NCBI GenBank assembly: GCA_947573605.1
Contig: CANPGM010000036.1
Span: 1-38,388 of the forward strand
DNA from: an uncultured Roseburia sp.
GTDB taxonomy: Bacteria; Bacillota; Clostridia; Lachnospirales; Lachnospiraceae
Direction: 5' to 3'
Length of the DNA: 38,388 nt
This document shows, one piece after another, positions 3,505 through 23,832 of this stretch. The position numbers were made by a program, and so were the translations under genes. The notes under the pieces were generated by a model, which was not told the DNA's origin, ran no database searches, and worked only from the letters and a program-made list of their open reading frames with translations. Numbering within the stretch: position 1 is the first letter of the stretch; the number at the start of each line of letters is the position of its first letter.

Positions 3505-3882
3505 ATGAAACTTGAAGAAGCAAAAATTCTTATCAGTGATGATTCCATACTGGCCAGAAAGCAATTAAAAGATGTAATTTCTGATTATGGAACCCCCACT
3601 TTTATTGAGACCTCCAACGGACAGGACGCCATAGACAGCTATAAAACTGAGAAACCCGATTTGGTATTTTTGGACATCGTTATGCCCGTCAAAGACGGAA
3701 ACGCCGCTGTCCGGGAAATACGCGAATATGACAGCAAAGCGGAAATCATTATTGTCTCTTCTGTCGGAACCCAGGCGCAGCTTCGCGCCGCAATCGAAGC
3801 CGGAGCAAAAGACTTTATCCAGAAGCCGCTGCATCGGGAACAGATTCACAATATCATTGTTTCAAGGTTCGAAGGGAGATAA
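3505..3882 (+). CDS. CheY-like stand-alone response regulator
   Basis: A 125-residue single receiver domain with no output domain. The acidic pair is in ISDDS (Asp12, Asp13), the phospho-acceptor is Asp57 in FLDIVMP, the Thr/Ser position is in IVSSVG (Ser85/Ser86), and the conserved Lys is Lys107 in IQKP. Such proteins work by protein-protein contact, as in chemotaxis or motility switching. The start follows AAGGAG. The next gene begins three bases after this stop, so the two are translated together, and that partner carries a CheX-like domain of the kind that dephosphorylates CheY. The cognate kinase is not in the window. Confidence 0.9.
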   Translation: MKLEEAKILISDDSILARKQLKDVISDYGTPTFIETSNGQDAIDSYKTEKPDLVFLDIVMPVKDGNAAVREIREYDSKAEIIIVSSVGTQAQLRAAIEAGAKDFIQKPLHREQIHNIIVSRFEGR

Positions 3883-3885
3883 ATT

Positions 3886-4782
3886 ATGTATGCTCAATTC
3901 TTTGGAAATTTTTTATTGTCACGCGACATTATAACCAGGGAACAGCTTCTTTCCGCAATGGAGAAGAAAGCCACCAGGCGTATCAAACTGGGTACGCTTG
4001 CGATGCACGCAGGCTATATGAGCGCAAACGAGGTAGAACACATAAAAATACTGCAGACACATCAGGATCGAAAGTTTGGCGAACTTGCCATTGAATCCGG
4101 TATTCTGACAAAGGAACAGGTCGATGAACTGTTAAAGGCTCAGGTACCGAATTTTCTTCTTCTTGGTGAAGTACTGGTTGACGAGGGAATTATTGACAAC
4201 TATCAGTTGGAAACTCTTGTAAATGAATATGAATCGGAAAGCGATCTTTATGCGCTTGAGTACGACGAAGACCCAAGAGAAAAAATAGAAACCATGCTGA
4301 AGCAGTATATGCAGGCCGCCGATAATAACATCAACGAATATGAACTTTTATATAACGTTCTGCTCTTCAACAATCTCGTTCGCTTTATTGGGGAGGACTT
4401 TACCCCCATATATTCTACTGTCTGTACGGAATATCCGAAGAACTTTTGCATTACGCAAAAAATAACCGGTCCTTTTGATATCACACTTTACATAGATATG
4501 CCGGAATCTGTCTGCATTGCTTTTGCGTCCAGATATGTCGGAGAAGATTTTGAACAATTCGACGAATATGTACAGGCTTCTATTGAAGACTTTGCAAATT
4601 TACATAACGGTCTGTACTGTGTCAATCTCTCAAACACAAAAAATGTAGAATTACAGCTTATGCCGCCGGAAATCGTATCCGATCCGGTATTAATGTTTGA
4701 ACATCAGGCTTTTTTAATGCCGATTATTTTTCCGTTCGGCTCTGTTAATTTCATCTTTGAGCTGAATGATAAAAATATCTAA
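3886..4782 (+). CDS. Tandem MshEN-like repeats fused to a CheX-like domain
   Basis: A 298-residue cytoplasmic protein. Residues 5-115 hold four 24-residue repeats (5-28, 34-57, 63-86, 92-115), each separated by exactly 5 residues, with the pattern (K/L)-(L/F)-G-x-x-(L/A)-(V/I)-x-x-G...Q-(L/V)...L. For example, KFGELAIESGILTKEQ opens repeat 3. This 24-5-24 arrangement is that of the MshEN c-di-GMP-binding domain (known from MshE/GspE ATPases), present twice. Residues about 150-298 resemble the CheX/CheC phosphatase fold: SIEDFANLHNG is followed by Pro261 exactly 22 residues after Asn238, matching the N-x22-P rule. The usual Glu of ExxN is Asp235 here. The start follows GGGAG. It is coupled to the CheY-like gene and ends at a strong bidirectional terminator. 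A c-di-GMP-controlled CheY phosphatase is inferred, not shown. Confidence 0.72.
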   Translation: MYAQFFGNFLLSRDIITREQLLSAMEKKATRRIKLGTLAMHAGYMSANEVEHIKILQTHQDRKFGELAIESGILTKEQVDELLKAQVPNFLLLGEVLVDEGIIDNYQLETLVNEYESESDLYALEYDEDPREKIETMLKQYMQAADNNINEYELLYNVLLFNNLVRFIGEDFTPIYSTVCTEYPKNFCITQKITGPFDITLYIDMPESVCIAFASRYVGEDFEQFDEYVQASIEDFANLHNGLYCVNLSNTKNVELQLMPPEIVSDPVLMFEHQAFLMPIIFPFGSVNFIFELNDKNI

Positions 4783-4788
4783 TACAAA

Positions 4789-4866
4789 AGGAGCTGCCGC
4801 ATCAGGGAAAATTCACAGGCCTTTTCTTCCGCCTGATCTTTTTCCTGATGCGTCAGCTCCTTTTTT
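4789..4866. terminator. Bidirectional terminator between the CheX-like gene and thrC
   Basis: Long inverted repeat with arms AGGAGCTGCCGCATCAGG and CCTGATGCGTCAGCTCCT (one mismatch), flanked by A-runs on the left and T6 on the right. It therefore terminates both converging transcripts. Confidence 0.93.
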
Positions 4867-4891
4867 ATCATCCGTTAAATCGTGAAATCTT

Positions 4892-6403: not shown

Positions 6404-8164
6404 TTACACATTTTTAAACTGATTTGCCTCGTGACGAAGCTGTTCACTGATATCGCGGTTGGTCTCCATCCGGGAGCTGACCGTATCGATATTTTCTACA
6501 AGTACGCCTGTACTTGACGCAGCATTTGTAATTCCGTTTGCGCTCTCTTCGATTGCGGAAGAAATGTCTCCGACAGCAGTCGTCATCTTTGACACAATAT
6601 CGAGCAGCGTGTCTGCCTGCTCTTCAAACCGATCCATTGTGCTGTTGACATACTCCGCATCCCTGCTGTATTGCTCTCCTGTATGTACAAAACTCTCATA
6701 ATCCGGCATAATTGTTTCATCAATATATGAAACAAGCGTATTGGCATTGCCCGCAAGCTTGTGAACTGCGGACGTTACCTGGTTATTGATTTTCTGAATA
6801 TTATTGGCGGTTTCCTTTGTAGAATCCGCAAGCTTTCTGATTTCATCCGCAACCACGGCAAATCCTTTTCCTGCCTCTCCCGCTCTTGCCGCCTCTATGG
6901 AAGCGTTTAACGCAAGAAGATTTGTCTGACTGGAAACGCTTAATATCTCATCGGCCAACTCATTAACGTGTTCTACACTCCTGCTTTCCTCAATCGCATC
7001 ACGAAGCGTCTCTACGATTCCGGAAACCATCTGACTTGTAGATTCTTTGTTGTCAACCGCTTTCAGTCTTAATTCATCCGCGCGATCCTGCATTTCGGAT
7101 GCGTAGCCATTCATTTTGCGCGTCGCATTATTAATCGATACCACTTCGTCGTTTACTCTTCCAATGCTTTCATTTACCATTGTAGCAGAGGAAGCGACCT
7201 CTTCCATCGTCGCCGACAATTCCTCCATCACAGACGAGATATCGCAGGCATTCGCATTCGCCGTTTCCACGCTGTTCACCACGCTGTTTACAATTTCTCC
7301 CATATCATTGGAATTCATTAAAATTTTACCCATAATACGCTGCAGGGTCTCAAGGAATATATTGATTCCTGTTGCAAGCGCACCGATTTCATCCCTTGTC
7401 GAGACGCGTACTCTTCTTGTCAGATCTCCGTTCCCGCTCTGAATCTCACGAATCACGCCGTTTAATTCGGAAGCAGTTCGTTTTAACGGCTTTACCACAT
7501 GGAACATAGAGATATAGACAGCGGAAAGCAATACGCCCGTCATAACGATGGAAATCACAATTACAATTACACGCGACATTTTGTAAACGTTTTCCTGATC
7601 GATAATTGCCTGATCGATATCGGCGTTCGCATTGTCAATAAAATTATCAATCGCCTGATGCATCTCCGTTCTCTTCGGCGTCAGCTCCTGATTAATAAGC
7701 GCGCGCGGAGCCGTTTTATCCGTATCTTCAAACAGAACAAGAAGCCGGTCAAAGATATCCTTATATTCATAAAACTTTGCACTCAAGGCAGCTGTCAGAT
7801 CTTTTTTTGTCTGATCTGCAGTTGTCTGCTCAAATTCCAGAATAAAGCCCTCAATCTGGCTGATATACTGTTTGGATTCCTCAATCATATCCAAGCGTTC
7901 CGCTTTGCTCTGGGATACGCACATCATGTATGCCAACAGTTCAAGATGGTCAATATCGGCAGAAAACTCATTGATTTCCTCTGTTTTCACCATATACTCA
8001 CCAGTGATCTTTTTGCTGGACTGGAACACCGAATTCAAATTAAGCGAACTGATAATAACCGTGGCAAGGGCTACAATAATCAGTTCGACCACAGGAATCA
8101 GTACCTTTCTACTGACTTTTGAACTTCTGCCCGTAACCTTTTTCTCTCTGGTATTTCTCTTCAT
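6404..8164 (-). CDS. Methyl-accepting chemotaxis protein
   Basis: A 586-residue transmembrane chemoreceptor. It has TM1 near residues 19-41, an extracytoplasmic helical region with an E/D-rich four-helix-bundle look (about 42-200), TM2 ([20 protein letters not shown]), a HAMP domain with the [11 protein letters not shown] segment, and a long MCP signalling domain. The highly conserved tip reads [20 protein letters not shown], then [15 protein letters not shown]. The ligand is unknown; the sensor lacks a recognisable dCache or PAS signature. The start is the ATG after GGAGGG at 10 bases, not the upstream in-frame codon at 8185. Transcription starts from a clear promoter at 8207-8235 and probably continues into thrC. 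No CheA or CheW gene is in the window. Confidence 0.95.
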
Positions 8165-8206
8165 AATGATTCCCTCCGCAAACACACATAATCAACCACT
8201 ATTTGC

Positions 8207-8260: not shown

Positions 8261-8289
8261 TTGCCTCTTTTTGTGAAAAATGCTATGCT
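8261..8289 (+). promoter_or_regulatory. Probable promoter of the AP2-domain gene
   Basis: TTGCCT (8261-8266), a 17-base spacer, then TATGCT (8284-8289), divergent from the chemoreceptor promoter. Leader of about 33 bases before the ATG at 8328. Confidence 0.6.
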
Positions 8290-8327
8290 TACAAGGTACT
8301 AAAATCCTAAAAAGAAGGGAGAACACT

Positions 8328-9131
8328 ATGCTTCCCGGAGTCTATGCAGCCCAAAAAAAAGACGGTACGCCGTATTTCCGCGCAGGTTTTCATTATAAAA
8401 CAAGACACATCAGTCTCGGAAGCTTTTCCACAGAAGAACTTGCGGGCAAAGCATATGCGCAGGCGCGTCGGATTGTTGAGACGCAGGAACTGACGATCCA
8501 CAATTTTTTTCCGTATAACGGCGTGCTGACATTCGAAAAAGTAGTATCTCTTATAAACTTTCGGGATAACAATCTCTATTTTCACAATCCCATCTATTTA
8601 AGAAAAGGCTATTTCAGTTATTTCCTCACGCCGGAAACCGAACTGAAATTCGATATCGACGACTTGTTCTATTATTCCGGCCATCGAATTATGCGCCGCA
8701 AAGGACATCTGTTTGTCAGCGATTACGGTATGCAATATTCCATATTATCCCGCTACGGCATTCGTCCGTACGCCGTCGCAGGGAGGGATTACCGATTTGC
8801 AAACGGCGACGCCACGGATTACCGTTATTCGAATATCATGATTATCAATCGTTTTCACGGCGTAGTATGCCTTGACAAAAACGGAAAAAAGGAATACAAA
8901 ACGTCCATTCATATAAACGGCAACTACTTGATCGGCATTTATTCCACGGAAGAAGAGGCCGCCGTTGCATACAACAAGGCGGCCGATTTGGCTAACGAAT
9001 CCGGGATACCGAAAAATTTTCCCAAGAATTATATTGATACTTTTCAACCGGAGAAATATGCTAAAACGTATGCAGACACCCATATCTCTGAGAAATATCT
9101 TGCCTATCTTGCATCTGTTCGGAAAAATTAA
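8328..9131 (+). CDS. Two-AP2-domain protein with a degenerate HNH-like core
   Basis: A 267-residue soluble protein. Residues about 4-50 (FRAGFHYKTRHISLGSFSTE) and about 190-250 (YKTSIHINGNYLIGIYSTEE, then EAAVAYNKAADLANE) both look like AP2/ERF DNA-binding domains. Each has the three-strand plus helix pattern and the G-x-(F/Y)-S-T-E-E-x-A-x-x-A-Y signature. Between them FDIDDLFYYSGHRIMRRKGH and FANGDATDYRYSNI recall the AP2-linked HNH homing-endonuclease family, but the usual catalytic His pair is not evident. It is therefore likely a domesticated DNA-binding protein or regulator rather than an active nuclease. The start follows AAGGGAG. It is monocistronic, convergent with leuD. Its target is unknown. 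Confidence 0.7.
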   Translation: MLPGVYAAQKKDGTPYFRAGFHYKTRHISLGSFSTEELAGKAYAQARRIVETQELTIHNFFPYNGVLTFEKVVSLINFRDNNLYFHNPIYLRKGYFSYFLTPETELKFDIDDLFYYSGHRIMRRKGHLFVSDYGMQYSILSRYGIRPYAVAGRDYRFANGDATDYRYSNIMIINRFHGVVCLDKNGKKEYKTSIHINGNYLIGIYSTEEEAAVAYNKAADLANESGIPKNFPKNYIDTFQPEKYAKTYADTHISEKYLAYLASVRKN

Positions 9132-23517: not shown

Positions 23518-23832
23518 AAAAAATCTTCGTCTCTAACTGCAACATTAGAGACGAAGATATGATTTGCTCCGCGGTACCACTCCGATTCGTATCCTGTCTT
23601 TCCGGCATGGATATCCGACAGAATACGCGCTTATGATTCTTAACGCGAATAACACGCTCCGGCCTACTTTTGCCGCTTTGGAACGGACATTTCAACCGAA
23701 GAACTCGGGGGCGAGTTGGGAACCGTATAATACTGCCTCACACCTTCCGGCAGCTCTCTGAAAATCTCCGGTTCTTAATACTCCCTTTCATCGTCTTTTT
23801 CACTTTAGAACCGTTTCTAAAGCTAAAATCTA
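23518..23832 (-). promoter_or_regulatory. Leucine T-box riboswitch of leuS
   Basis: The minus strand holds the invariant T-box AGTGGTACCGCGG (about 23569-23583). A Stem I region has the GGTG/GAGG-type conserved loops (CAGAGAGCTGCCGGAAGGTG), and a candidate specifier CTC (23715-23713) fits tRNA-Leu. The leader ends in a strong terminator ATCTTCGTCTCTAA/TTAGAGACGAAGAT plus T6 (23518-23558). Uncharged tRNA-Leu would stabilise the antiterminator and allow leuS transcription. Confidence 0.93.

Follow-up and report, generated by a model that had tools for sequence, protein, structure and literature searches.

A CheY-associated protein with MshEN-like repeats and a CheX fold as a candidate cyclic di-GMP-responsive module in Roseburia

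Cyclic di-GMP (c-di-GMP) acts on motility and chemotaxis proteins through PilZ-domain links such as YcgR, whose target is the motor, and MapZ, whose target is CheR. Rap phosphatases respond to peptide signals, not to c-di-GMP. In the MshEN_N domain of Vibrio cholerae MshE (PDB 5htl), as described in the available part of Wang et al. 2016 (PMC5013675), c-di-GMP is bound by two 24-residue motifs separated by five residues, each of which supplies a basic residue, a Gly and a Gln to the ligand. The same part of that paper names CheX, in one sentence, among the domains associated with MshEN and holds no analysis of the architecture, partner, active site or evolution of the pair; proteins of the MshEN+CheX kind are therefore known by name. 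Here we describe such a protein, encoded at positions 3886..4782 of the forward strand of a 38,388-nucleotide stretch of DNA from an uncultured Roseburia sp. (contig CANPGM010000036.1; hereafter the window). Four MshEN_N-like repeats precede a CheX-fold domain in this protein, and its gene directly follows that of a stand-alone CheY-like receiver.

The protein shares with MshE the 24-5-24 layout, the Gly and Gln ligands and a helical fold, predicted at residues 32-89. It differs from MshE in having four repeats instead of two with an intact site in the central pair, Lys and Phe in place of Arg and Leu, and a CheX fold instead of an ATPase as the partner domain. Unlike the Borrelia burgdorferi CheX with CheY (PDB 3hzh), it carries DxxN instead of ExxN and has putatively regulatory N-terminal repeats. 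The Rap phosphatases, although of other folds, offer a parallel in that a helical-repeat protein is joined to receiver phosphatase activity and is also able to block the receiver by binding (RapH-Spo0F; available part of PMC3035606). As with YcgR and MapZ, c-di-GMP would be brought to bear on chemotaxis or motility proteins, here by a domain other than PilZ; a YcgR-type PilZ protein is encoded in the same genome.

The receiver gene (3505..3882, forward strand; 125 amino acids; Pfam Response_reg, 89.1 bits) has its stop codon at 3882, and the ATG of the repeat/CheX gene lies at 3886, leaving a three-base gap. This arrangement, as well as the coordinates, frame and length (298 residues) of the second gene, agrees with a preliminary description made from the sequence alone, which had proposed a c-di-GMP-gated phosphatase or scaffold linked to CheY. 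The interpretation that we favor, with belief and doubt about evenly balanced, is that the protein serves a dedicated CheY as a CheX-type partner, responds to c-di-GMP and affects the turnover of phosphorylated CheY (CheY~P).

The four 24-residue repeats (residues 5-28, 34-57, 63-86 and 92-115) recur with an exact period of 29 residues. Mean BLOSUM62 self-similarity was 0.61 at a lag of 29 and 0.66 at a lag of 58, whereas every other lag from 15 to 59 gave a value between -0.45 and -1.35, and the value at lag 29 was reached in none of 20,000 shuffles, confirming the 24-5-24 spacing reported earlier. Against the published MshEN motif, which has 11 consensus positions, repeats 1 to 4 scored 8, 9, 11 and 9 when similar residues were allowed for by a rule of our own; the next best segment of the protein reached 6. 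The NCBIfam profile for the MshE-related c-di-GMP motif, NF053729, matched the protein at 66.3 bits (cut-off 38, E 1.6e-18) and was matched at E <= 0.001 by all 50 members of alignment A1, which includes the window protein and leaves out L071 and L076. A further difference from MshE is that Pfam MshEN (PF05157) gave no match at E <= 10 in the window protein or in the whole genome, so that the protein is not assigned to the full MshEN domain of that model; profile comparison thus supports the earlier assignment in NCBIfam and is silent in Pfam. In the predicted structure, residues 32-89 match MshE with c-di-GMP (PDB 5htl), in further agreement with an MshEN_N-type motif. By spacing, NF053729 match and ligand positions, the repeats look able to act as an MshEN_N-type c-di-GMP receptor, binding being predicted from sequence. 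The weak Pfam names DUF4388 and fumarase C-terminus were rejected as identities because they fall below the cut-off and span only about 30 residues, around repeat 3.

We counted residue conservation over 95 sequences, including that of the window; identical copies were removed, as were L034 and the second partial frame of L009, both of them short and incomplete. L035 is without the CheX part. Repeat 2 (3985..4056, KLG...Q) has Lys or Arg at residue 34 in 94 sequences, G36 in 93 and Q57 in 94. The corresponding counts for repeat 3 (4072..4143, KFG...Q) are 89 for Lys or Arg at residue 63, 94 for F64, 94 for G65 and 93 for Q86. At motif positions 1 and 2, where MshE has Arg-Leu, the window protein has Lys-Leu and Lys-Phe; Arg occurs at residue 34 in 13/95 sequences and at residue 63 in 72/95. 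All four Gly and Gln ligand positions are present in its repeats 2 and 3. Repeat 1 (3898..3969, FFG...K) is without Arg/Lys at position 1 (residue 5, 0/95) and without Gln at position 24 (residue 28 is Gln in 43/95), and repeat 4 (4159..4230, LLG...Y; all four on the forward strand) has Tyr or Phe at the Gln position in 95/95.

Because the central pair alone keeps the full ligand set, one site is expected across the boundary of repeats 2 and 3. The protein probably has this single c-di-GMP site, with the outer repeats as probable caps, which is likelier than the doubled receptor of the preliminary description. Two separate sites, in repeats 1+2 and 3+4, are disfavored because repeat 1 has no Arg/Lys or conserved Gln and repeat 4 has Tyr/Phe. 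One result weighs against a central site: on the window protein, the NCBIfam profile ranks pairs 3-4 (38.4 bits) and 1-2 (33.1 bits) above pair 2-3 (26.3 bits), and profile scores taken alone would favor the outer arrangement. Among full-length distant rows, both Gln are kept in 12 of 15. L073 and L084 have lost c-di-GMP ligand residues; the former (1674-2594) is a long-branch orthologue that retains the CheX site and CheY, and represents a natural ligand-blind variant. In the distant family f62, the CheX-CheY pairs L152 and L153 match the family model from position 93-94 onward, and their repeats are therefore largely missing; in the family's pairs as a whole (L150 to L153) the repeats are largely missing or without ligand residues.

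The CheX/CheC-type character of the C-terminal half was upheld. Pfam CheX (PF13690) scored 28.2 bits against a cut-off of 27, a marginal match, and was matched by 39 of the 50 members of A1 at E <= 0.001. In the predicted structure, about residues 148-295 (4327..4770, forward strand) match CheX structures, and the linker that separates them from repeat 4 has a predicted local distance difference test (pLDDT) value under 50 at residues 122-128. Alignment to 3iic places D235 (4588..4590) at the catalytic Glu of the CheX ExxN motif and N238 (4597..4599, both on the forward strand) at its catalytic Asn. The Asn is present in 94/94 sequences, and the position of the Glu is occupied by Glu in 44/94 and by Asp in 50/94. 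Since the window protein keeps Asn238 and has Asp in place of the catalytic Glu, we class the domain as a CheX fold of the CheC/CheX/FliY superfamily and not as a proven CheX phosphatase.

The Asp rows correspond to one change on the tree (branch support 100/99). The tree was midpoint-rooted, and the direction from Glu to Asp rests on canonical CheX and on the distant rows, where Glu is found in 14 of 15. Four residues upstream, Asp is found in 43/44 Glu rows and Ala or Ser in 49/50 Asp rows. Ala at that position occurs together with Glu in 5/15 distant rows, and the loss of the upstream Asp may therefore have come before the Glu-to-Asp change. According to the available parts of two papers (PMC3035606, PMC3510030), CheZ and the CheC/CheX/FliY proteins reach into the receiver with two groups, an acidic side chain forming a bridge to its Lys and an amide positioning the water; the acidic residue is Asp in CheZ (DxxxQ) and Glu in CheX (ExxN) (PMC3510030). 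In view of this shared acidic role, the DxxN variant may be active, weakened or capable only of binding.

The window CheY has the acidic pair D12 and D13, the phosphorylatable D57, S85 at the Ser/Thr position, the aromatic F104 and K107. For 92 of the 95 related loci, we found a same-strand receiver that is either fused or within 300 bases: it lies upstream at 53 loci, downstream at 28, and forms a C-terminal receiver (REC) fusion at 11. The three misses are L023, which has a cut-off CheY at the contig edge, L085, where one flank is just 323 bases long, and L129, where no receiver lies in the 1.5 kb on each side. Sixteen of 17 further loci from a phylum-wide sample had an adjacent receiver, the miss (L145) being the same place as L129; the 13 loci from outside the order all had one. 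The constant CheY partner and the fusions are therefore strong evidence, at the level of sequence, of a direct interaction in which the repeat/CheX protein would be the partner of CheY, as the preliminary description had supposed. Fused MshEN-CheX-REC paralogues of 424-460 residues, with canonical DxxxExxN, are found at L076 (11673-13034), L081 (1710-3014) and L107-L111, and the fused and split types occur together in some genomes, among them G060, G043, G007 and G023.

Asp57 is kept in 50/54 upstream CheYs, that of the window included. In one subclade of the tree (L029, L030, L036 and L037), CheY has Ser or Thr at this position and D13 is replaced by Asn, yet the accompanying repeats retain their Gly and Gln ligands. 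The ratio of nonsynonymous to synonymous substitution rates (dN/dS) of these CheYs was 0.09-0.20 in the five pairs for which it was computed, indicating purifying selection; in three of these pairs dS is close to or exceeds 1. Together with the intact repeat ligands, this suggests that CheY functions without phosphorylation in the subclade.

Matches to query P0001 below 1e-15 came from 56/62 genomes of the genus (its own included), 9/28 in the rest of the family sample and 5/55 in the rest of the order sample. Named relatives with the gene are Roseburia, Agathobacter, Eubacterium, Lachnotalea and other Lachnospiraceae or Clostridiales records; locus L033 belongs to Lachnotalea glycerini. The phylum-wide sample gave matches in 17/398 genomes, our own among them; a tally of 387/392 genomes was set aside because its query included the receiver domain, for which hits turn up in any genome. 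Among genomes from outside the genus, those bearing flagellin have the gene in 14/60 cases and those without flagellin in 0/23 (two-sided p 0.0085, kinship not corrected). GGDEF domains, found in 140/145 genomes, were too common for a correlation with the repeat/CheX gene.

The Roseburia genome itself has 14 GGDEF matches above the cut-off and, in one stretch, CheA, CheC, CheD, FliM, FliY, a CheY and the YcgR-type PilZ protein. A second CheA cluster (L103, contig C2, 60000-79000) holds CheW, a CheY-like receiver and two REC-HD genes, along with frames named CheB and CheR by eye. The REC-HD proteins are possible c-di-GMP phosphodiesterases, and the cluster may couple a chemosensory kinase to the degradation of c-di-GMP. 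Over 109 residues, the window CheY is 43% identical to the CheY of the flagellar operon; its identity to the C2 CheY is 28%. A free-standing FliY-like phosphatase domain (L106, 5332-5979; 216 amino acids; NCBIfam FliY, 246.6 bits against a cut-off of 218) lies on another contig than the flagellar operon and is another CheC/FliY-type protein of this genome.

In the mechanism that we propose, the two genes would form a module, one supplying a dedicated CheY and the other a CheX-type partner that senses the level of c-di-GMP and controls this CheY. The four helical repeats would be arranged as a short array, in which repeats 2 and 3 (residues 34-86) together hold one c-di-GMP and repeats 1 and 4 serve as caps. 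Beyond repeat 4 and the low-confidence linker, the CheX-fold domain would insert D235 and N238 into phosphorylated CheY, and c-di-GMP binding would alter the meeting of this domain with CheY~P, changing the rate at which CheY~P is removed or its free amount. That c-di-GMP is bound, that it gates the CheX-fold domain, the sign of the effect and the flagellar motor as output are what we infer from the observations above.

The Asp at the active site also lends itself to a different reading, which we find rather unlikely: the CheX domain of the window clade would have become a platform for binding, its phosphatase activity low or absent, and c-di-GMP would determine if CheY, phosphorylated or not, is retained or let go. 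Such holding is consistent with the single, well-supported change to Asp in rows that mostly have no Asp four residues before, with the presence of CheC and FliY in the genome, and with the subclade whose CheY, under purifying selection, has no D57 or D13 and whose repeats nonetheless keep their Gly and Gln ligands. However, all 50 D-type sequences retain both the acidic residue and the Asn, CheZ itself has Asp where CheX has Glu (available part of PMC3510030) and uses it for a salt bridge to the receiver Lys (available part of PMC3035606), and D57 is intact in nearly all upstream CheYs, including that of the window. The phosphatase half of the earlier "phosphatase or scaffold" proposal is thus qualified by the Asp and by the subclade CheYs, and its scaffold half is still alive.

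Two further readings concern the ends of the proposed pathway. The dedicated CheY might act not on the flagellar motor but elsewhere, for instance on the C2 CheA cluster, whose REC-HD genes would close a c-di-GMP feedback loop. The gene content of that cluster is what speaks for this output, which we consider improbable: the window CheY is nearer to the flagellar-operon CheY than to the C2 one, and outside the genus the gene was found, in our sample, in flagellin-bearing genomes only. We give even less credence to the idea that the repeats, like the MshEN domain of XpsE, have ceased to bind c-di-GMP and now just dimerize or orient the CheX domain. The silence of Pfam MshEN, Lys for Arg at residues 34 and 63, Phe for Leu at residue 64, and the loss of ligand residues in L073, L084 and a few distant relatives fit this reading. 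Nevertheless, NF053729 matches above its cut-off, and XpsE has lost G11, G40, Q61 and other residues (available part of PMC5013675), whereas the Gly and Gln are kept here in 93-94/95 sequences. Of the preliminary description, the MshEN_N-type repeat motif, the CheX fold and the CheY link are supported; the doubled site is not. The description also pointed to a nearby chemoreceptor gene.

The chemoreceptor gene in question is present (6404-8185, minus strand; Pfam MCPsignal) but is not a conserved neighbor: a homologue was found in just 6/37 related loci, of which some are truncated at contig ends, and we rejected a link to it. The order citrate synthase-CheY-repeat/CheX gene-thrC is old, with a thrC match in 33/37 related loci and citrate synthase in 28/37, and the locus is therefore a stable chromosomal one. 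Between the repeat/CheX gene and the convergent thrC, a hairpin ending in a T run (4782..4868; -46.9 kcal/mol, z -9.9, equal stability in 0/200 shuffles) is a probable two-way terminator for both genes; a simple terminator scan, limited to loops of 3-8, gave none. Promoter-like sites in the window were at chance level (6 found, 5.4 expected). A c-di-GMP riboswitch was rejected, the sole Rfam match above its gathering score in the window being a T-box leader (23544-23800, minus strand, 111.3 bits). A 283-residue frame at 8280-9131 has no Pfam match at E <= 0.001 and has a homologue in 22/37 related loci.

In the open-licence literature searched, Wang et al. 2016 is the one paper that mentions both MshEN and CheX. 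No functional study of an MshEN+CheX protein was found there among the matches listed, judged by title and abstract start, and the available parts of PMC8789113, PMC12943098, PMC9239204, PMC10746217 and PMC12415202 do not treat such a protein. A search combining Roseburia, c-di-GMP and motility likewise gave, by title and abstract start among the matches listed, nothing on a link between c-di-GMP and motility. Within the literature searched, four points seem to be new detail: the central site with its caps, the clade with Asp for Glu, the constant CheY neighbor and the existence of fused forms.

The link between c-di-GMP and motility in Gram-positive gut bacteria seems little studied, and the module predicts a single-protein junction between c-di-GMP and chemotaxis signaling. 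It offers natural variants: Glu or Asp at the active site, CheY with or without the phosphorylatable Asp, lineages without the repeats or the ligand residues, and a fusion in which the partner is set by the polypeptide itself. More tentatively, the module could be Clostridia-wide, with one c-di-GMP in the middle of the array gating a CheX fold and hence a dedicated CheY, and it could have become a phosphorylation-independent switch in some lineages and a single MshEN-CheX-REC polypeptide in others. If true, c-di-GMP would be wired to chemotaxis signaling directly and post-translationally, with CheY itself as the point of contact.
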